Positions 1 through 8,892 of a stretch of DNA of 29,313 bases are shown in pieces. Within the stretch, counting starts at the first letter, position 1; each line of letters begins with the position of its first letter. The DNA comes from a virus. A program made the position numbers and the translations under genes. A model generated the notes under the pieces. It made no database searches. It had not been told where the DNA came from and was given only the letters and a program-made list of their open reading frames with translations. The stretch lies in IMG/VR virus record IMGVR_UViG_3300042864_001501, positions 1-29,313 of that record; one strand, given 5' to 3'.

Positions 1-1686
1 TCTAACTTTACTTGCTCTCCAACTCATAAAATGTATGTTGATGGTAAAGGTTGGATATTAGTTACCGATATGGTAATTGGTGATGTTATAAGTAATCAAA
101 AACTATTGTCAGTAGAACCTGCTGAAAGTGGAGATGTTATTGTTATTGAAGTTGATGAGGCATATACTTTTATTGGTGAAGGATTGTTATCGCGTACAGT
201 GAAGATTGAATTAACAGAATCTCCACTGCCAATTTTTAATCCATTTCCAAAGATTTTGATGTCAGATAAGACTCAAAAAAATGCTAGAGATTTGAAAGTT
301 GGTGATTTAATTAAAACTCAACATGAACATACTTTAGAATGGGGAGAGTATCCAATTACACATAATTCAACCTTACAGTCGGAAAGATTAAAACTTACTT
401 TTGATAATGCTAAGGTTATTTTTTCTCCAACTCATAAAATGTATGTTGAAAATAAAGGTTGGACTAGAGTTTGTGATATGGCAATTGGTGATGTTGTAAG
501 TAATCAAAAATTAATAAGTGTGGAGAGTGTTGAATATGGTGATGTTGTTTCAATTGAAGTTGATGATGCACATACTTTTATTAGTGACGGATTATTATCG
601 CACAACAGAAGAAATCCTCCTCCACCACCGCCACCACCGCCAAAATCACCGCCACCACCTCCATTTGTTCTCCCACGAACACAGCAAGACCCCTTGTTAG
701 CATTTGTGTCACCACCACCGCCACCGCCACCACCAAAAGCACCACCACCAAAAGCGCCAAAGCCACCCGCACCAGTTGCGCCACCAGTTGCGCCACCAGT
801 TGCGCCACCAGTTGCGCCACCATCACTGGCACCATCTTGTCCTGCACCATGGGCAAAGATATTAATGTCTGACGGGACTCTTAAGAATGCGGGTGATCTA
901 AAAGTTGGTGATTTAATAAAAACTCAAGATGAACACACTTTAGAATGGGGTGAATACTCTGTATTAAAAGTTTCTATCGTTCAAGAAGATAGATTTAAAA
1001 TGAAATTTGACCACAAAGATTTGGTCTGCTCAACATCTCATAAAATGTATGTTGAAAATAAAGGTTGGACTAGAGTTTGTGATATGGTAATTGGGGATAT
1101 TATAAGTGGACATACCTTACTTGAAATTGATGATTATGAATATGGAGATGTCGTTGCAATTCAAATTAAGGGTGCTCACACTTATATCTGTGAAGGATTA
1201 TTATCTCACAATTTAAAGATAGTTACTCCACCAGTAACGAATCCACCTGTAACGAATCCATCACCACCAATTACATCCTGTCCTGCTCCATGGACAAAGA
1301 TCTTAATGGCAGATGGAACTCAAAAGAATGCAGGTGATCTAAAAGTTGGTGATTTAATTACAACTCGACATGAACATACTTTAGAATGGGGTGAATACTT
1401 AATTGATTATGTTAAGCAAGTTGATTCTGAAAGATTGAAAATTATCTTTGATCATGTTGAATTTACCTGCTCACCTACTCATACATTTTATAGTGAAGAA
1501 AGTGGTTGGGTTTTAGCTTGTAGTTTAAAAGTTGGTGATATTATTTCTGGGCATACAATTATAAAAATTGAAAGTGCAGAACCTGGAAAGGTTGTTGCAA
1601 TTCAAGTTGATGGTGGTCACACCTATATCTCAGAAAACTTATTATCTCACAATAAACTAGTCTCACCACCACCAACAGGCAAATAA
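1..1686 (+). CDS. Proline-rich protein with four tandem Hint (intein-like/BIL) domains, 5'-truncated
   Basis: The frame is open from base 1, so the gene begins upstream; ATG 31 lies inside a Hint domain and is not the start. Four Hint copies are visible: copy 1 (1-195, C-terminal half only), copy 2 (238-606), copy 3 (838-1212) and copy 4 (1279-1653). Copies 3 and 4 are both exactly 125 residues. Each starts SCPAPW[AT]KILM, then GDLKVGDLI, a block-B-like [CF]S.[ST]H.[MF]Y motif, and a terminal HTYI..LLSHN. Cys at the start and His-Asn at the end are the Hint residues used for N-S acyl shift and Asn cyclisation. The residue after HN is Arg, Leu or Lys rather than Cys/Ser/Thr, as in B-type bacterial intein-like domains, so cleavage is more likely than splicing. 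Copy 1 ends SRT instead of SHN and copy 2 starts with Asn instead of Cys. Linkers are almost pure Pro/Ala/Val. Role in the virion is unknown; a fibre or surface rod is inferred from the neighbours. Confidence 0.85.
   Translation, partial: SNFTCSPTHKMYVDGKGWILVTDMVIGDVISNQKLLSVEPAESGDVIVIEVDEAYTFIGEGLLSRTVKIELTESPLPIFNPFPKILMSDKTQKNARDLKVGDLIKTQHEHTLEWGEYPITHNSTLQSERLKLTFDNAKVIFSPTHKMYVENKGWTRVCDMAIGDVVSNQKLISVESVEYGDVVSIEVDDAHTFISDGLLSHNRRNPPPPPPPPPKSPPPPPFVLPRTQQDPLLAFVSPPPPPPPPKAPPPKAPKPPAPVAPPVAPPVAPPVAPPSLAPSCPAPWAKILMSDGTLKNAGDLKVGDLIKTQDEHTLEWGEYSVLKVSIVQEDRFKMKFDHKDLVCSTSHKMYVENKGWTRVCDMVIGDIISGHTLLEIDDYEYGDVVAIQIKGAHTYICEGLLSHNLKIVTPPVTNPPVTNPSPPITSCPAPWTKILMADGTQKNAGDLKVGDLITTRHEHTLEWGEYLIDYVKQVDSERLKIIFDHVEFTCSPTHTFYSEESGWVLACSLKVGDIISGHTIIKIESAEPGKVVAIQVDGGHTYISENLLSHNKLVSPPPTGK
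431..1087 (+). repeat. 51-bp exact direct repeat shared by Hint copies 2 and 3
   Basis: Bases 431-481 and 1037-1087 are identical over 51 bp, covering the codons for the H-K-M-Y-V-E-N-K-G-W-T-R-V-C-D-M segment. The rest of the two domains has diverged more, including the loss of Cys1 in copy 2. This patchy identity suggests recent gene conversion or duplication within the array. Confidence 0.85.
607..837 (+). repeat. Proline-rich linker between Hint copies 2 and 3
   Basis: This 77-residue linker contains runs of eight to nine prolines, PPPKAP-type units, and then PVAP-type units (APPV repeated) encoded by a near-perfect 12-bp tandem repeat around 775-820. Such composition favours a stiff polyproline-II rod. 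A shorter linker of the same kind (PPVTNPPVTNPSPP) follows copy 3 at 1213-1278, and a 10-residue tail follows copy 4. If the Hint domains excise or cleave, proline-rich segments are what would remain. Confidence 0.8.
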
Positions 1687-2341: not shown

Positions 2342-3958
2342 ATGGCAATTAAAAAAGCGTTTGTTATAAAAGACGGATTAGAAGTTAATTCTGACGTTCT
2401 TATTGTAAGCGGTCAAACTAAAAATGTTGGCATAGGTTCTACTATTCCAAGAGTGGAATTAGATCTACGTGGTAGGTTTATTGCAACAGATTCTTATCTA
2501 ACAGGAATCTCAACTGTTATAAACGAACTAAACGTCGGAACGAATGGAACGGTTCTTACAGCATTAGGTAGTGGTTCTGTTGGTGTAGGAACAGCACTGC
2601 CAAACTACTTATTAGATGTTCGTTCTTCAGTCTCTACAGGACAAACAGCACTTTATGTTCAAGGCGATACAAGTGTTACTGGAAAGTTGGATATTGGGGG
2701 TAGTATATCCTTTAGTGGGTTTACTGCACTTAATGCCAATATCACTGGTATTGCAACAATTGGGACGGTAAAAATATTTTCTGGTATTGTAACTGCCACA
2801 AGTACAAGTGGTGTTGTAACTTATTATGGTGATGGTTCTAAACTTACTAATATTTCTGCTTCTTCTGCTGTCTATGCCATAAATTCTGGTATAGCAACTT
2901 ATGCAACCTCTAGTGGTATTTCTAGTACTGCTACTTATGCATTAACTGCAGGAATTTCTACTGCTGCAACTTATGCGACTAGTGCTGGTATAGCAACTTA
3001 TGCAACCTCTAGTGGTATTGCAACTTATGCAACTAGTGCTGGAATTTCTTCTGCACTTACGGCAGCAGCATCAGTTAATACTACTGGTATCATAACCGCA
3101 GCATCATTTGTTGGAAATGGTTCTGGATTAACAAATGTTCCTATAAGTGGTATTGCTACTTATGCAACCTCTAGTGGTACAGCAACTTATGCTACTTCTA
3201 GTGGTATTGCTACATCAGTTATGGGTGGTATTGCATCTGTTGCACAATTAAATGTTTCTGGTGTTTCTACCTTCTCTGGAATAACAACTTATACAGCATC
3301 CTTATTTGGAACTACCGCAAGTTTTACTGGCGTTGTTACCGCATTATCATTCTCTGGCTCTGGCGCAAACTTAACTGGACTTGTTGCTGGTGTCGGAATT
3401 GCAACTGCTGGAGGAACAGTAGGAACTGGAGCAACATTCTTAGACTTTAGAGGTTCGGGAATTTCTACTGTAACAGTTAGTTCTGGAATCGCAACTATTA
3501 ATATTAGTGGAGGTGGTGGAGGTGGAGTAACAATAAGCGATGATATCTCAACAAATGCAACTAGGTATCTTACATTTACTGACTCTACATCAGGATCTAT
3601 TTCTGCAGCAAATGTTTCTTCAACAAATCTCCAATTTAATCCACTATCTGGAAACCTAGCAGCAACTCAATTTACATCACTATCAGACGCAACTCAAAAA
3701 ACTAACGTAAGACCTATAGAAAATCCGATTGAAATTACGAAACAACTTGATGGAGTTAGGTTTGATTGGATAAATAACAATAAACCTTCACTTGGTTTGA
3801 TTGCTCAGGAAGTAGAAAAAGTACTTCCTGAACTCGTTGAGACCAATAGCGATGGCATTAAGTCAGTAAGTTATTCCAATATGGTTGGACTTTTAATTGA
3901 AGCAATCAAAGAACAACAAGTTCGTATTGAAGAACTGGAGAGAAAATTAGATGCCTAA
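2342..3958 (+). CDS. Tail fibre protein with C-terminal Peptidase_S74 chaperone
   Basis: This is a 538-residue fibre-type protein. Residues 1-60 carry the VGIGST.P..ELDLRG motif common at the start of phage fibres. Residues about 180-310 are repeats of the type SGIATYATSSGIA, low-complexity beta-rich shaft. From about residue 400 a short linker (SGGGGGG) leads to the S74 intramolecular chaperone (about 440-538): LSDATQKTNV with the S448-D449 cleavage site and K453, [23 protein letters not shown], and a C-terminal trimerising coiled coil (EQQVRIEELERKLD). S74 domains of phage tailspikes guide trimer folding and then cut themselves off before the Ser. It overlaps the next gene by 8 bases. The last 100 residues match the end of the 1265-residue fibre at 21122-24919, so the domain is duplicated in this genome. 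Confidence 0.88.
   Translation: MAIKKAFVIKDGLEVNSDVLIVSGQTKNVGIGSTIPRVELDLRGRFIATDSYLTGISTVINELNVGTNGTVLTALGSGSVGVGTALPNYLLDVRSSVSTGQTALYVQGDTSVTGKLDIGGSISFSGFTALNANITGIATIGTVKIFSGIVTATSTSGVVTYYGDGSKLTNISASSAVYAINSGIATYATSSGISSTATYALTAGISTAATYATSAGIATYATSSGIATYATSAGISSALTAAASVNTTGIITAASFVGNGSGLTNVPISGIATYATSSGTATYATSSGIATSVMGGIASVAQLNVSGVSTFSGITTYTASLFGTTASFTGVVTALSFSGSGANLTGLVAGVGIATAGGTVGTGATFLDFRGSGISTVTVSSGIATINISGGGGGGVTISDDISTNATRYLTFTDSTSGSISAANVSSTNLQFNPLSGNLAATQFTSLSDATQKTNVRPIENPIEITKQLDGVRFDWINNNKPSLGLIAQEVEKVLPELVETNSDGIKSVSYSNMVGLLIEAIKEQQVRIEELERKLDA
2886..3019 (+). repeat. 35-bp exact direct repeat in the fibre shaft
   Basis: Bases 2886-2920 and 2985-3019 are identical and encode the GIATYATSSGI unit; further degenerate copies occur around 3150-3210. 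The units encode the repetitive shaft and could recombine to alter fibre length. Confidence 0.8.
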
Positions 3959-5165
3959 TCAGTTTAATTCTCCAGAAGGAGATTTAGAAAATTACTTTGT
4001 GAGTGAGTATTGGTTAATTGACCAATGGGTTGGTGATACTTTATGGACTTGGGGAGAAGGATTTAATGGACGGTTAGGAAATAATGCAACATCCAATAGA
4101 TCCACTCCAGTCACTACATTTGAGGGAGGAACCAACTGGAAACAGGTTTCTTATGGATATGGACATGCAGCAGCAGTGAAAACTGATGGAACTTTGTGGG
4201 TATGGGGAGGACGTTTTGGTGGAGCACTGGGAACAAACGATTTAGCTTCCAATAGATTAGTTCCCGTTCAAACATTCGCAGGAGGAACCAACTGGAAACA
4301 AGTTTCTTGTGGTTATAAAAGAACAGCAGCAATTAAGACAGATGGAACTTTGTGGGTGTGGGGAGACAATACTGCAGGAGTATTAGGAACCAATGATACA
4401 ACACAAAGAAACACACCAGTAACCACATTCGCAGGAGGAACCAACTGGAAACAGGTTTCTTTAGGATATGGTAGTAGTATGGCAGCAATCAAAACTGACG
4501 GAACTTTGTGGGTTTGGGGTGGTAATGATGCAACTTTGGGAACTAATGATGCAATATTCAGATACACTCCAGTCACAACATTCGCAGGAGGAACCAACTG
4601 GAAACAAGTTTCTTCCGGCGCTTCATTTCTTGGTTGCAGTGCAGCAATTAAAACTGATGGAACTTTATGGGTTTGGGGAGATAATTCTTATGGAGGACTA
4701 GGAACCAATGACACAAATAAAAGATCAACTCCAGTCACAACATTCGCAGGAGGAACCAACTGGAAACAAGTTGATGTTAGTCCGGGCAATATGGCAGCAA
4801 TCAAAACCGATGGAACTTTATGGACTTGGGGCCGTAATCTTTATGGGCAACTAGGAATCAATAACACAACTGCAAGATGCACTCCAGTCACTACATTCGC
4901 AGGAGGAACTAACTGGAAACAAGTTGCTGTTGGAATTGGTGGATCATCAACGACATTTAGTATGATATCAATTAAAACTGATGGAACTCTATGGACATGG
5001 GGCGCAGATTTAGGCACGGGGATGTTGGGAACTAATGATGCAACACAAAGAAACACACCAGTAACCACATTCGCAGGAGGAACCAACTGGAAACAGGCTA
5101 CATCTGGCAGGACCTCTAAAGGCGCAATCACATCAGGCACTGATCCTACCTACTTCATCGCATAA
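3951..5165 (+). CDS. RCC1/BLIP-II-type seven-bladed beta-propeller protein, paralog 1
   Basis: After a 30-residue N-terminal segment (MPNQFNSPEGDLENYF...) the protein is made of seven tandem units of about 50 residues, each of the form TLW[TV]WG.N..G.LG.N.T..R.TPVTTFAGGTNWKQVS.G....AAIKTDG. This is the RCC1 repeat seen in seven-bladed propellers such as RCC1, UVR8 and bacterial BLIP-II. Strand residues are almost invariant, while the stretch between NWKQV and AAIKTDG and the residues around LG.N vary in sequence and length, as expected for exposed loops. There is no signal peptide. It follows the S74 fibre with an 8-base overlap (GGAG about 10 bases before the ATG). Role is inferred as a virion-attached adhesin or fibre tip; no catalytic residue is visible. 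The RCC1 call is strong. Confidence 0.85.
   Translation: MPNQFNSPEGDLENYFVSEYWLIDQWVGDTLWTWGEGFNGRLGNNATSNRSTPVTTFEGGTNWKQVSYGYGHAAAVKTDGTLWVWGGRFGGALGTNDLASNRLVPVQTFAGGTNWKQVSCGYKRTAAIKTDGTLWVWGDNTAGVLGTNDTTQRNTPVTTFAGGTNWKQVSLGYGSSMAAIKTDGTLWVWGGNDATLGTNDAIFRYTPVTTFAGGTNWKQVSSGASFLGCSAAIKTDGTLWVWGDNSYGGLGTNDTNKRSTPVTTFAGGTNWKQVDVSPGNMAAIKTDGTLWTWGRNLYGQLGINNTTARCTPVTTFAGGTNWKQVAVGIGGSSTTFSMISIKTDGTLWTWGADLGTGMLGTNDATQRNTPVTTFAGGTNWKQATSGRTSKGAITSGTDPTYFIA
4399..5097 (+). repeat. 57-bp exact direct repeat between RCC1 units 3 and 7 of paralog 1
   Basis: Bases 4399-4455 and 5041-5097 are identical over 57 bp, encoding TTQRNTPVTTFAGGTNWKQ (the first codon differs in the base before the repeat). 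The intervening units differ more, so this looks like recent unit duplication or gene conversion rather than uniform constraint. Confidence 0.85.
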
Positions 5166-5182: not shown

Positions 5183-5842
5183 ATGTACGCACTCGTTAAT
5201 GGTCAGGAATTACTTTTAGGACCAATCGCATTCAACTATAGAATGATTAATGATGAACTAGAAGAACTTGAAGTAGATTATAGAGTGACTTCACAAGATT
5301 ATCAAAATGTTCCTATTGTGATCACAGAGGATATTAAGATTCTTCCTGCAAGAAATGAGATCCCAGAGTATAATCCAAGATTTCAAACAGCATCTCAAAC
5401 AAGTCATACAATTGCAGATGATGAAGTAGTCTTTGTTTATACTGTTGAAGATAAAACACTTGGGCAAATTAAAGAAGAATATAAATTAGGTGTAAAACCA
5501 GAAAGACAAAGAAGAGAAAATACATCAATTGAAGTTACTATTAATAATTCTGGAATTACAGTATCAACAGATAGAGAAAATCGTCTAGCACTTATTGCAA
5601 AATATATTGCTGGACCTGGACCTCATAACTTTAAGTTTGATAATGGAACTTGGTTGCAAATTACAACAGAAGATTTACAAACCATTATTCAAGCAGTGGA
5701 TACAAAAGTCCAAGAAGCATATGATTGGGAACTTGCAAAACTTCAAGAGATTGATGCTTGTGAAACTAAAGAAGAAGTTTATGAAGTAGAGATTGTTCCT
5801 CCTGTAGAAAAACCTGGAGTAGTTCAAAATGCCCAATCCTAA
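5183..5842 (+). CDS. Small fibre-accessory protein with DUF4376-like C-terminus
   Basis: The 219-residue protein begins MYALVNGQ.LLLGPI, with a beta-rich N-terminal half. The C-terminal half (about 145-200) reads NGTWLQITTEDLQTIIQAV, then VQEAYDWELAKLQEIDACET..E, which resembles DUF4376, a helical domain found in many phage tail-fibre-associated or assembly proteins. It sits between two RCC1 genes and overlaps the second by 14 bases, so it may help fold or attach the propeller proteins. There are no catalytic motifs, transmembrane segments or signal peptide. The DUF4376 resemblance is moderate; the assembly role is inference from position. Confidence 0.6.
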   Translation: MYALVNGQELLLGPIAFNYRMINDELEELEVDYRVTSQDYQNVPIVITEDIKILPARNEIPEYNPRFQTASQTSHTIADDEVVFVYTVEDKTLGQIKEEYKLGVKPERQRRENTSIEVTINNSGITVSTDRENRLALIAKYIAGPGPHNFKFDNGTWLQITTEDLQTIIQAVDTKVQEAYDWELAKLQEIDACETKEEVYEVEIVPPVEKPGVVQNAQS

Positions 5843-7076
5843 TACCAATTTTAAAGATTCTTTTGGTACTGATTTAGGTAATAAACTCATTACCAAAGAA
5901 TACTTGATGACTGTGTATCCACAGATTGCAAATCAGTTGATTACTCCAGAATTATGGAGTTGGGGTCGTAACAGTGCTGGACAACTCGGAGACAATACAA
6001 CAACCAATAGAGTGACTCCAGTTACAACTATTGGGGGAGGAGCAAATTGGAGACAAGTTTCTTGTTCAGGTGTCGGTAATGCCATCACTGGAGCAATCAA
6101 ACTTGATGGAACACTATGGACTTGGGGTTGGGGACAAGACGGGATTCTGGGGAATAATAACGGTGGGTCTTTTTCATGGCCCTCACCATCCACAACATTT
6201 GCTGGAGGAACCAATTGGAAACAAGTTTCTGTTTCTCGTAGTCATTCTGCAGCAATCAAAACTGATGGAACCTTATGGACTTGGGGACTTAATAGTAATG
6301 GTCGGCTAGGAGACAATACATCATCCACTAGACTCACTCCAGTCACCACATTTGCAGGAGGAACCAACTGGAAACAAGTTTCTTGTGGATGTAATCCATA
6401 TGATGTATTCATGGGATGCACTGCAGCAATCAAGACTGATGGAACTTTATGGACTTGGGGTCGCAATGCTTATGGGCAACTCGGAGACAATACAACAACC
6501 AATAGAGTGACTCCAGTCACCACATTTGCAGGAGGAAACAACTGGAAACAAGTTTCTTGTGGAGGACAATTTGTTTCAGCAATCAAAACCGATGGAACTT
6601 TGTGGGGTTGGGGGTATAATAATTTAGGGCAACTGGGAACCAATAATACAACTAATAGACCTACACCAGGCACAACATTTGCAGGAGGAACCAACTGGAA
6701 ACAAGTTTCTTGCGAAGGTGGATTTTCTTCATCTGCAATCAAAACTGATGGAACTTTATGGGTTTGGGGAGTTAATTCCGGAACTTTGGGGACTGGCAGT
6801 GATGTAAGTATTAAACTTACTCCAGTAACTACATTTGCTGGAGGAACGAACTGGAAACAAGTTTCTATGGGAGAAGGGACTACGGCAGCAATCAAAACTG
6901 ATGGAACTTTGTGGGGTTGGGGTCGCAATGCTTATGGTCAGTTAGGAACTAGTAGCGCAATAACCCCAATATGTTCACCAGTCATAATATTCGGAGGAAC
7001 TAATTGGAAACAAATTTCTTCTAATGCAGTGAACATGTCGGCAATAAGAACTTCAGATGATTTACAAGGTATCTAA
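5829..7076 (+). CDS. RCC1/BLIP-II-type seven-bladed beta-propeller protein, paralog 2
   Basis: A distinct N-terminal segment of about 45 residues (MPNPNTNFKDSFG..., helical GNKLITKEYLMTVYPQIANQL) is followed by seven RCC1 units with the TLWTWGRNAYGQLGDNTTTNR and TPVTTFAGG.NWKQVSCG consensus. Unit 1 is divergent (TTIGGGANWRQV), and the seventh ends IIFGGTNWKQI, lacking the final AAIKTDG, as expected where N- and C-terminal strands close a propeller. Unit 3 has a longer loop (CGCNPYDVFMGCT) with extra cysteines. It overlaps the DUF4376-like gene by 14 bases. The unit DNA is nearly identical to parts of paralogs 1 and 3. Adhesin role is inferred. Confidence 0.85.
   Translation: MPNPNTNFKDSFGTDLGNKLITKEYLMTVYPQIANQLITPELWSWGRNSAGQLGDNTTTNRVTPVTTIGGGANWRQVSCSGVGNAITGAIKLDGTLWTWGWGQDGILGNNNGGSFSWPSPSTTFAGGTNWKQVSVSRSHSAAIKTDGTLWTWGLNSNGRLGDNTSSTRLTPVTTFAGGTNWKQVSCGCNPYDVFMGCTAAIKTDGTLWTWGRNAYGQLGDNTTTNRVTPVTTFAGGNNWKQVSCGGQFVSAIKTDGTLWGWGYNNLGQLGTNNTTNRPTPGTTFAGGTNWKQVSCEGGFSSSAIKTDGTLWVWGVNSGTLGTGSDVSIKLTPVTTFAGGTNWKQVSMGEGTTAAIKTDGTLWGWGRNAYGQLGTSSAITPICSPVIIFGGTNWKQISSNAVNMSAIRTSDDLQGI
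5982..6517 (+). repeat. 41-bp exact direct repeat between RCC1 units 1 and 4 of paralog 2
   Basis: Bases 5982-6022 and 6477-6517 are identical and encode QLGDNTTTNRVTPV. The flanking parts of the two units have diverged, pointing to patchwork exchange between blades. Confidence 0.85.
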
Positions 7077-7100: not shown

Positions 7101-8450
7101 ATGAACCCCATTGAGTTAGTTGCAAAAACATTATATTCCTTTCAAGAACATCAACTTACATTTGAACTTCTAGATGCTTTTGGTAAAAGAGCACAAGTAT
7201 TCTCACAATATGATGAGATTGCAAAGTGCTTCTTTGAACTCAAGAACTTCTCCAAAGCAATTGAGTATGGAGAAAAAGGTCTTAAATTAGCAAAGTCAAA
7301 AGAAGAACTTTATATCACTACAAAGAATTTGATTAATGCTTATAATCAAAACAACTATCCAGAAAAAGCAATAACACAAATTTCAAAAATCAAATCACAA
7401 AATCCTCAAGATACTGAACTTCTTCTTGAGGAAACTTTTGCTTATTCTGCAATTAATCAAAAAGAAAAATCAGAAAAACTTTTATTCAATCTTCTTCAAA
7501 AGAAACTACCAGAAGAAATTGAAAGAAAAGCATATCACAACTTATCTGGACATTATTTCCGCAAGAATGATATTCGTACAGGACTTCAACATTTTCTCAA
7601 AGCAGGAGAAGTAGAAGCATATAAGAATAGAAAACTTCCTGAATATGAGAAATGGGATGGAACCATCACACCTGGAAGAACTATTATTGTAGATAATGAA
7701 TGTGGTGCTGGTGATGAAGTGATTCATATCAGGTTTATGAAGCATCTCAAAGAACTTGGAATGAAACCTATCTGGAGTTCAACCAGAAGAGAACTTGTAG
7801 AACTCTTTCAACATAATGGATATGATGCTGTTTGTGTTTATGACAATCCAGAGTTTCCTAAAGATTCCTGTTGGGTTTATGGACTTGCACTTCCTTATTA
7901 TCTCAATCTAACAATAGAAGATTTGGGACAAGAACCTTATCTTCAAACCATTCCAAAGTATGATGAGAAATGGAAATGGATTCAGGAAGATACTGGATAT
8001 AAGATTGGTATGTTCTGGGCATCTAGTTCTGGATTTGAACAGAACTCATTTAGAAGTGTAGAACTCAAGGATTATATGAGTGTTCTTGGGAATAAAGGAT
8101 ACTCGTTATACTCACTACAAACTCATAGTGATAATAAGGATGCTGATGAGTATCCAGAAATCAAACAATCACTTTCAGTTCAAGGTAGAGAATTTGCTGA
8201 TACATTCTCCATCATTAAGAACCTGGATATGGTTGTGACTTCTTGTAGTTTTGTATCTCACGTTGCAGCATCACTAGGAAAAGAAGTTTGTGTCTTTGTT
8301 CCGATTATGGAATATTATGTTTGGACAAGTTCAACAGGAAAATCTATGTGGTATGGGGATAATGTTCATCTATTCAGACAAAAGAAACCAAGAACTTGGG
8401 ATGCCCCTATTAAAGAGTTTGGAGAGTTTATGAATGATAGAGGAGTATGA
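7101..8450 (+). CDS. TPR protein fused to a GT9-like glycosyltransferase
   Basis: Residues about 30-190 form helical TPR-like repeats (AKCFFELKNFSKAIEYGEKG is a typical TPR unit). Residues about 195-449 resemble the GT-B fold of family 9 transferases in TPR-linked proteins: ECGAGDEVIHIRFMKHL (200-216), KIGMFWASSS followed by FRSVELKDY (301-325) and DMVVTSCSFVSHVAASLG (376-393), the last matching the nucleotide-sugar-binding D.v.t.dt...H.A..lG pattern. Members transfer sugars to glycans or proteins; donor and acceptor cannot be read from the sequence. It is the first gene of the cassette, downstream of a CTAAATA box, and overlaps the next gene by 17 bases. No membrane segment or signal, so probably cytoplasmic. 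Confidence 0.7.
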   Translation: MNPIELVAKTLYSFQEHQLTFELLDAFGKRAQVFSQYDEIAKCFFELKNFSKAIEYGEKGLKLAKSKEELYITTKNLINAYNQNNYPEKAITQISKIKSQNPQDTELLLEETFAYSAINQKEKSEKLLFNLLQKKLPEEIERKAYHNLSGHYFRKNDIRTGLQHFLKAGEVEAYKNRKLPEYEKWDGTITPGRTIIVDNECGAGDEVIHIRFMKHLKELGMKPIWSSTRRELVELFQHNGYDAVCVYDNPEFPKDSCWVYGLALPYYLNLTIEDLGQEPYLQTIPKYDEKWKWIQEDTGYKIGMFWASSSGFEQNSFRSVELKDYMSVLGNKGYSLYSLQTHSDNKDADEYPEIKQSLSVQGREFADTFSIIKNLDMVVTSCSFVSHVAASLGKEVCVFVPIMEYYVWTSSTGKSMWYGDNVHLFRQKKPRTWDAPIKEFGEFMNDRGV

Positions 8451-8892
8451 TTTATCTTTTCTGAATCTCAATACTATTAAGAGTAAACTTTTACAGATAG
8501 AAACCAATTCTCACGGTCTTGTAAGCAAAGGTGCTTCTACTTACAATCACGGAATGCCTGTTCTAATGTATCCAGAATTAACTGGATTGAAGAATATTAT
8601 CAAACAATATGTGAGATTGTATTGCAATAAGTATGAGATTCCTCCACTCAAGTTTATCAACAGTTGGTTCAATATTTCACAACCAGGAAATAAACTTAAA
8701 GCACATAAGCACGAAGAAAGTATTGTAAGTGGAGCATTTTATATTTCTGGAAAAACTCCTTTAATATTTCCAGATACATCAATCAATCCTTATCCTGGAT
8801 TATTAGTCATCTTCTCAAGTGATTTGGTTCATTATACAGAAGAAGAAACAGAAGAACGAATTATTATTAGTTTTAATACAGATTACCTATGA
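8434..8892 (+). CDS. 2OG-Fe(II) oxygenase (2OG-FeII_Oxy_5-like)
   Basis: The 152-residue protein has SWFNIS (77-82), H91-K-H93-EESIVSGAFYIS, PG.LVIFSSDLVH133 and E-R142-IIISFN. This order is typical of the small 2OG-FeII_Oxy_5/TIGR02466 group of phage and marine bacterial oxygenases, where the H.H..S..SG.YY segment supplies metal ligands, the later His is the distal ligand, and Arg binds 2-oxoglutarate. Which of the proximal residues binds iron here is not certain. It differs clearly from the prolyl-hydroxylase-like enzyme at 1691-2260. It overlaps the previous gene by 17 bases and the next by 4 (ATGA). Its place among glycosyltransferases suggests modification of a sugar or of the acceptor protein, but the substrate is unknown. 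Confidence 0.75.
   Translation: MIEEYDLSFLNLNTIKSKLLQIETNSHGLVSKGASTYNHGMPVLMYPELTGLKNIIKQYVRLYCNKYEIPPLKFINSWFNISQPGNKLKAHKHEESIVSGAFYISGKTPLIFPDTSINPYPGLLVIFSSDLVHYTEEETEERIIISFNTDYL

Follow-up and report, generated by a model that had tools for sequence, protein, structure and literature searches.

A tandem array of type-A BIL-like Hint domains behind a probable tail adhesin in a phage from environmental DNA

Introduction

Why would a phage carry four intein-like Hint domains in a row behind what is probably a tail adhesin, and what would become of the pieces between them? The question is raised by the first open reading frame (1–1686, + strand) of the window analyzed here, a whole virus record of 29,313 bases that belongs to a virus of bacteria and comes from environmental DNA. 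A preliminary description, made from the sequence, had read this frame as an array that may cut itself into pieces or fuse its Pro-rich exteins.

The phage inteins described in the accessible parts of earlier papers are located in terminase, ribonucleotide reductase, dCTP deaminase and a minor head protein (PMC3556154, PMC5259590, PMC5526547, PMC6293099, PMC7468147). In the last of these, as far as its text was available, the minor head protein of a phage has an intein, whereas 36 tail fibre/collar/protein genes gave 0 intein matches. In the literature searched, mostly non-subscription papers, we found no report of Hint/BIL domains in phage tail or fibre proteins.

Architecture of the gene

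The reading frame lacks its 5′ end and is open at the first base of the window. The same region is encoded at ten loci of the viral collection. All 1686 bases are identical in L004–L007, where the whole gene encodes 1167 amino acids from an ATG that follows AAAGGAG; L009, L010, L012 and L013 encode homologous proteins of 1152–1154 residues, and the gene is cut in L008 and L011. The order of the 1167 residues is an Ig-like part (an assignment that is our own reading of the sequence), a Gly-rich part, P14, Hint1, a short linker, Hint2, a 76-residue linker, Hint3, a 21-residue linker, Hint4 and KLVSPPPTGK.

In the window, all these elements lie on the + strand. The window starts inside Hint1, of which it holds the C-terminal half only (1–195); a whole copy lies at 6996–7373 of L004. 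The short linker TVKIELTESPLPIF (196–237) leads to Hint2 (238–606). The linker between Hint2 and Hint3 (607–834) starts with RRN at the Hint2 C junction, and 40 of its 76 residues are prolines. Hint3 (835–1212, Cys1 at 838–840) and Hint4 (1276–1653, Cys1 at 1279–1281) are separated by LKIVTPPVTNPPVTNPSPPIT (1213–1275; 7/21 prolines), and the C-extein KLVSPPPTGK of 10 residues (1654–1683) is followed by the stop codon (1684–1686). Both counts agree with linkers described as Pro-rich. The four repeated units of about 125 residues were likewise recovered by a repeat search (repeat D1, n = 4; D3, n = 3). Because the four copies score 169–216 bits against the family profile, of which copies 3 and 4 are themselves members, and form a group in a tree, the repeat is not due to chance.

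The copies differ in the residues that they retain. Hint1 carries SCPAPW and TCSPTH, then AYTF…LLSRT, so that the block-F His is a Tyr and no His-Asn is left. Hint2 has NPFPKI(LM) instead of SCPAPW and no Cys1, and keeps IFSPTH, the block-F His and the C-terminal end (AHTF…LLSHN), followed by Arg-Arg. Hint3 (CSTSH, Lys at +2) and Hint4 (CSPTH, Lys at +1) are catalytically complete, with Cys1, block B, HTYI and LLSHN all present. The N-terminal nucleophile Cys1 is therefore found in Hint1, 3 and 4 and absent from Hint2, and the C-terminal His-Asn is found in Hint2, 3 and 4 and absent from Hint1. The preliminary description correctly counted two copies with both Cys1 and His-Asn; its common borders, SCPAPW and LLSHN, occur together in copies 3 and 4, but copy 1 ends in LLSRT and copy 2 starts with NPFPKILM. 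Block B reads SPTH or STSH in all four copies, and its His is invariant across 11 aligned rows. The block B motif of type-A BIL domains is Ser/Thr-x-x-His. The +1 residues are Arg (Hint2), Leu (Hint3) and Lys (Hint4) as had been noted, and the regular feature is a Lys at +1 or +2.

Hint1, 3 and 4 thus carry the residues needed to form a thioester, and Hint2, 3 and 4 those for Asn cyclization. We consider it slightly likelier to be right than wrong that this is an array of self-excising type-A BILs which matures an adhesin, with some joining of the flanks; its activity, the ligation and their timing are what we infer. The reading frame would be the C-terminal half of a pro-adhesin, in which four Hints follow a complete Ig/Gly-rich adhesin and P14. 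In an active copy, the N–S shift would leave the N-extein held by Cys1 as a thioester, and Asn cyclization would release the C-extein, upon which the Hint would leave. The +1 backbone amine, or the side chain of a Lys at +1 or +2, could then react with the thioester, linking the flanks with no need for Cys, Ser or Thr. Hint1 and Hint2 would act as a unit, cut on the N side by Hint1 and on the C side by Hint2. The net product would be the adhesin minus about 500 Hint residues and with a Pro-rich tail, further Pro-rich pieces being added insofar as ligation outruns hydrolysis. To judge from the residues, the outcome could be cutting, backbone rejoining or joining through Lys.

Hint fold and family identity

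The window reading frame matches Intein_splicing (E 3e-11), Hom_end_hint (2e-9) and PT-HINT (5e-8) in an HMM search of Pfam, all above the curated cut-off, and NCBIfam intein_Cterm, also above cut-off. Against the PDB, a profile of six phage Hint rows gave BUBL BIL2 (E ~1e-8), 8w20 (9e-6) and the BIL 2LWY (2e-5); Hint4 alone gave 2LWY first (E 3e-4) and BIL2 second (1.3e-3).

An AlphaFold2 model of the L031 Hint, a homologue and not a window copy, reached a pLDDT of 93.1 and has a Hint fold, with BUBL BIL2 as the first Foldseek match (E 1.1e-9). VIA aligned this model with the Ssp DnaB intein (Z 20.1, 129 aligned residues, 1.7 Å), BUBL BIL2 (Z 19.6, 128 residues, 1.6 Å) and the Clostridium thermocellum BIL 2LWY (Z 18.7, 125 residues, 1.6 Å); since these Z values are nearly tied, structure cannot choose among the three. 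The Hint/BIL identity proposed for the array is borne out by the profile matches and by the predicted fold of this homologue, but a didomain model of Hint1–Hint2 was weak (pLDDT 68).

The only Pfam matches of the 1167-residue protein, down to E 0.1, are of Hint type and AXH; neither a homing endonuclease nor the ubiquitin-like domains that surround BILs in BUBL proteins were found at this threshold.

Lysine behind the C junction

We compared the residues that follow the His-Asn end in 56 distinct domains with such an end, which form 34 clusters at 80% identity. Lys stands at +1 (15 clusters) or +2 (17 clusters) in 32 of these 34 clusters, which are not independent: under midpoint rooting, one large clade unites Hint3 with the +1 cases, and a second clade contains the remaining +2 cases. 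At 60% identity the count is 23 of 25. Both exceptions are inner tandem copies: Arg-Arg follows Hint2 of the window, and LVGK follows the first Hint of L073. From +3 to +8, Lys is outside the six commonest residues. The counts leave out both Hint1 copies (no HN), the L022 fragment, L100 (split; same genome as L106), L093 and L096 (Cys at +1) and the Chloroflexi MAGs L101 (Lys at +1) and L103 (Cys at +1, Lys at +2). On this basis no cluster has Cys, Ser or Thr at +1 (0/34), in line with the earlier argument that canonical splicing is disfavored.

At the first residue, Cys1 is present in 33/34 clusters and missing only in Hint2. This includes L120 and L094, where local alignment missed a Cys1 that was found upstream, and L032, which is cut by the contig and was counted through its cluster mate L042.

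At the PF07591 control loci, the four distinct HN ends are followed by AC, CG, AC and GG, without Lys; a further control, L125, has no HN end by the pattern used. Distant bacterial Hints with an HN end (L108, L109, L111–L117) have Lys at +1 or +2 in six of nine cases, so that this Lys is not exclusive to phages.

One reading of the rule is that the Lys at +1 or +2 replaces Cys, Ser or Thr, the thioester-activated C-terminus of the adhesin or tail tip being passed to the Lys side chain in cis, as isopeptide splicing, or to amines of other virion subunits or of the host surface. In its favor are the constant place of the Lys beside the scissile bond and the relationship with BIL2; the BIL2 of a Tetrahymena BUBL forms an isopeptide bond with a Lys amine, according to the part of PMC8616854 available. 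With Arg-Arg behind Hint2 counting against it, we regard such a transfer as quite unlikely. If true, it would offer an ATP-free route to cross-link the tail or to attach it covalently. Purely electrostatic help of the Lys to Asn cyclization would explain the rule as well.

The Hint1–Hint2 pair

Hint1 and Hint2 are sisters in the tree (support 98/89). The eight array copies, four from each of two lineages, lie on one side of a branch with support 89/88; this branch, which gives the array one origin, requires a single change in 90% of 200 bootstrap trees, and its support is moderate. From the sister relation and the complementary losses it follows that the inner junction of a duplicated Hint lost both of its ends while the outer ends were kept. 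We read Hint1 and Hint2 as one functional unit, although the losses alone do not prove activity. A domain swap, in which the N-terminal half of Hint1 and the C-terminal half of Hint2 form one active Hint, is consistent with the losses but receives no support from the didomain model, whose 50 listed structure matches cover only residues 143–268, Hint2 as one contiguous domain.

We then calculated dN/dS between the two array lineages (L004 versus L009); with 5–18 changes per Hint, the values are rough. They are 0.10 for Hint1, 0.36 for Hint2 (4 synonymous and 6 non-synonymous changes), 0.06 for Hint3 and 0.09 for Hint4, compared with 0.23 in the Ig-like and 0.25 in the Gly-rich part of the adhesin. 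The long linker, with indels, has 0.30, and the linker between Hint3 and Hint4 has 1.28 (4.5 synonymous and 13.5 non-synonymous changes). Purifying selection thus appears, on these rough values, stronger on Hint1, 3 and 4 than on the adhesin, but not on Hint2, whose dN/dS is no lower than the adhesin's. The first C-extein residues (RRN, LKIVT and KLV) are identical in both lineages.

The array could also consist of idle Hint folds, which would act as stiff beads or as binding modules along the Pro-rich rods of the adhesin, with motifs that are merely structural. One catalytic end is missing from each of Hint1 and Hint2, and the array linkers are Pro-rich in both lineages, as such beads would have it. 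We nevertheless hold this to be very unlikely: beside the near-universal Cys1 and the invariant block-B His, the HN/HQ end is missing, among the unbroken domains in the family table, only from Hint1, and the paired losses in Hint1 and Hint2 leave both outer ends intact.

The probable adhesin and its neighborhood

Upstream of the Hint-array gene lies a gene that matches the tail-fibre family phrog_529 (E 1.8e-294); the N-terminal part of the 1167-residue protein itself matches phrog_24848 (unknown function; E 1e-125). Nine phage records, some of them duplicates, contain homologues of this N-extein. Their gene lies directly behind the fibre gene in S-SM2, Bellamy and P-TIM68, and the proteins stop at the point where the polyproline of the window protein starts. 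From its position, composition and kin, the N-extein is probably a tail adhesin. These neighbors agree with the suggestion of a virion component near fibre genes, and the protein would have its place in the virion. As part of our preferred explanation, the phage that encodes the array would be related to T4-like cyanophages. The polyproline, in turn, is not the main body of the protein, as the preliminary description had it: the Pro-rich pieces are linkers after the probable adhesin.

Downstream, a convergent 2OG-Fe(II) oxygenase gene (1691–2260, − strand) and a gene for a fibre-like protein with a C-terminal S74 chaperone domain (2342–3958, + strand) were identified with Pfam. The nearest PDB sequences of the oxygenase are prolyl 3-hydroxylase 1 (E 4e-4) and prolyl 4-hydroxylases (E 0.05), and as a speculation, it could hydroxylate the Pro-rich linkers of the array. 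A second 2OG-Fe(II) oxygenase gene lies at 8434–8892 (+ strand; Pfam). The S74 fibre gene contains short near-repeats at 2722–3495. Two genes for RCC1-type beta-propellers (PF25390) follow at 3951–5165 (E 1e-55) and 5829–7076 (E 2e-64), with a tail-fibre-like gene (phrog_10508) between them.

Homologues without Hints

Comparison with related proteins bears on the fate of the flanks. L073 encodes the same type of adhesin, followed by P9, a Ser-rich stretch, two Hints connected via LVGKG, then KLVAP and a C-terminal domain of about 70 residues. L137 encodes a homologous adhesin, P9, a short Ser/Pro stretch and a C-terminal domain like that of L073 (56% identity, E 4e-18), and no Hints. This domain lies at 5964–6164 in L137 and 6802–7017 in L073, and that of L137 had no tblastn match in named phages. 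As the chain of L137 is continuous, the flanks of the L073 Hints form one chain elsewhere, and splicing of L073 would give the same make-up. The C-extein of the window starts with KLVSP, the counterpart of KLVAP in L073. Joining after excision is therefore plausible from this pair of sequences. Homologues of the L031 protein without a Hint also exist (L179, L180 and L181).

A scan for the adhesin gave at least 51 loci, near-copies included; L073 is not among the matches listed. Among the 51 listed, four have Hints, all of the window type, 25 end within 12 residues past the adhesin, where the linker of the window starts, 21 have other C-terminal parts (L137 included) and one is cut by the contig. 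For the window type, no homologue whose C-extein is continuous with the adhesin was found among these 51. The Pro-rich linkers are missing or different in the adhesin homologues and thus form a non-conserved region. In L029 (Synechococcus phage SynMITS9220M01; 5995–7845), the adhesin homologue is followed by about 50 prolines, eight arginines and a different C-terminal part.

With a C-extein of 10 residues and 25 of the 51 listed loci ending at the adhesin, mere removal of a tail also fits. The array would then be a C-terminal pro-region, removed as in a self-cleaving fibre chaperone, and the rest would be discarded. The S74 endosialidase chaperone is such a C-terminal, self-removed part of fibre proteins; it belongs to a different Pfam family from the Hints, which are multi-copy here. 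Cleavage alone would also suit the 16 Lys +2 clusters outside the window array, a clade of tail proteins, in all of which the Hint ends 5–14 residues before the stop. According to the accessible text of two papers, BILs yield mainly cleavage products (PMC7664689), and A-type BILs are unable to ligate their flanks (PMC7765530, a review), for which reason joining may be minor or absent. However, a conserved Lys behind the junction would then have no use, and the His-Asn kept in Hint2, 3 and 4 is not needed for N-cleavage alone. Moreover, some Hints of the family lie near the N-terminus (L031) or in mid-protein, and L073 and L137 suggest a continuous product. We judge cleavage alone to be somewhat unlikely.

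The existence of Hint-less homologues (L137, L179) and the grouping of the copies, as though multiplied in place, could also point to selfish mini-inteins that spread in a tolerant linker and lost the +1 nucleophile. This is highly improbable in our view: the protein has no homing endonuclease match in Pfam at E up to 0.1, purifying selection is stronger on three of the Hints (1, 3 and 4, but not 2) than on the adhesin, and the Lys rule spans two large clades. The sites also lie in non-conserved linkers, and conserved sites are preferred by inteins, not by BILs, according to the part of PMC2814812 available.

Related Hints in other tail proteins

The array is not an isolated case: Hints of the same group recur in other phage tail proteins. 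A scan with A2, whose patterns lie in the Hint core and not at the C junction, detected 62 viral loci, those of the window type among them. In genome contigs, a scan with A3 gave five bacterial loci and one with A1 gave none. Among the host proteins are J-like tail tips: the N-extein of L099 has matches named ‘host specificity protein J’ or ‘tail fiber protein’, and Phage-tail_3 is found in L028 and L100. Tail assembly and tail proteins are the hosts in L076, L085 and L094, and that of L066 belongs to phrog_358, in which named relatives bear the annotation structural protein or VrlC. Other host proteins had no match in the family search. A Gly- or Pro-rich linker often precedes Cys1, and six virus records (L076, L079, L080, L081, L083 and L084) each carry two genes with a C-terminal Hint. 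The array domains are members of this group, whose Hints resemble type-A BILs and sit in tail and other virion proteins of phages. Those in sphingomonad genomes probably belong to prophages.

Hint3 and Hint4 together matched 2 of 50,697 records of named phages by tblastn at 1e-5. Hint4 alone, at E ≤ 1, matched 50 records, many of them annotated terminases, and a search with the L023 Hint at E ≤ 0.1 matched seven. Among 385 alphaproteobacterial genomes, ten match at 1e-6, the start genome G001 and nine with distant Hints; in a family-level draw of genomes, 4/397 match at 1e-10, G001 included.

Discussion

By the features compared, the array domains belong with type-A BILs and not with canonical inteins, Hog domains, pretoxin Hints or BUBL proteins. 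As described in the parts of PMC4031507 and PMC7664689 available, type-A BILs have His-Asn and no +1 nucleophile and mainly cut; in the splicing proposed for them, the amine of the C-extein, once free, attacks the N-terminal thioester. With the C. thermocellum BIL (2LWY), the array shares Cys1, the block B His, His-Asn, the lack of Cys, Ser or Thr at +1, a non-conserved host region and, through the L031 Hint model, the fold (Z 18.7). It differs in its phage virion hosts and in its four tandem copies. In the BIL literature searched, parts of which were accessible, we saw no Lys rule at +1/+2.

BUBL BIL2 (PDB 6Y75/6TMM) is the best PDB match of the phage profile and ranks first with Foldseek. 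It is likewise a BIL between protein modules, there Ubl domains, and can use a Lys amine as acceptor, as the accessible text of PMC8616854 has it. In contrast to the ubiquitin-like exteins of a eukaryote, those here are a phage adhesin and Pro-rich linkers; the array family has Lys fixed at +1/+2, and the window has a pair in which each Hint is half degenerate. BIL2 is not uniquely nearest, as its VIA Z is tied with those of several inteins and Hint4 matches 2LWY first. Tandem BILs are known from ciliate BUBL genes.

Class 1 inteins (gp41-1, Ssp DnaB) have the same fold and the N- and C-terminal catalytic residues, but the array has no Cys, Ser or Thr at +1, no endonuclease and no conserved enzyme site. 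The PT-HINT of bacterial pretoxins (PF07591) also matches the window frame; unlike these pretoxins, the array has no toxin domain, Hint4 being followed by 10 residues, and the control loci of that family have no Lys. Unlike the Hedgehog Hog domain, Hint2–4 keep His-Asn, and the 10 residues after Hint4 leave no sterol-recognition region.

If the domains are active, they would represent a self-processing and possibly protein-joining step inside phage receptor-binding proteins, in a group that extends over cyanophage-like phages, other virus records and tail genes of sphingomonad genomes. Type-A BILs would gain a biological home, and splicing domains with Lys at +1 would need no Cys, Ser or Thr there. 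The isopeptide chemistry reported for BUBL would become testable in small phage proteins, and Hint1 and Hint2 would be a natural case of two Hints sharing the two ends of one excision.

A different protein is encoded in Achromobacter phage 2-1 (L034, 2053–3513), near a baseplate hub gene. It has a Hint-like end after the Cys-rich NCNCDCNCSC and no obvious His-Asn end, and from its sequence is perhaps a cleavage-only, Hog-like case.
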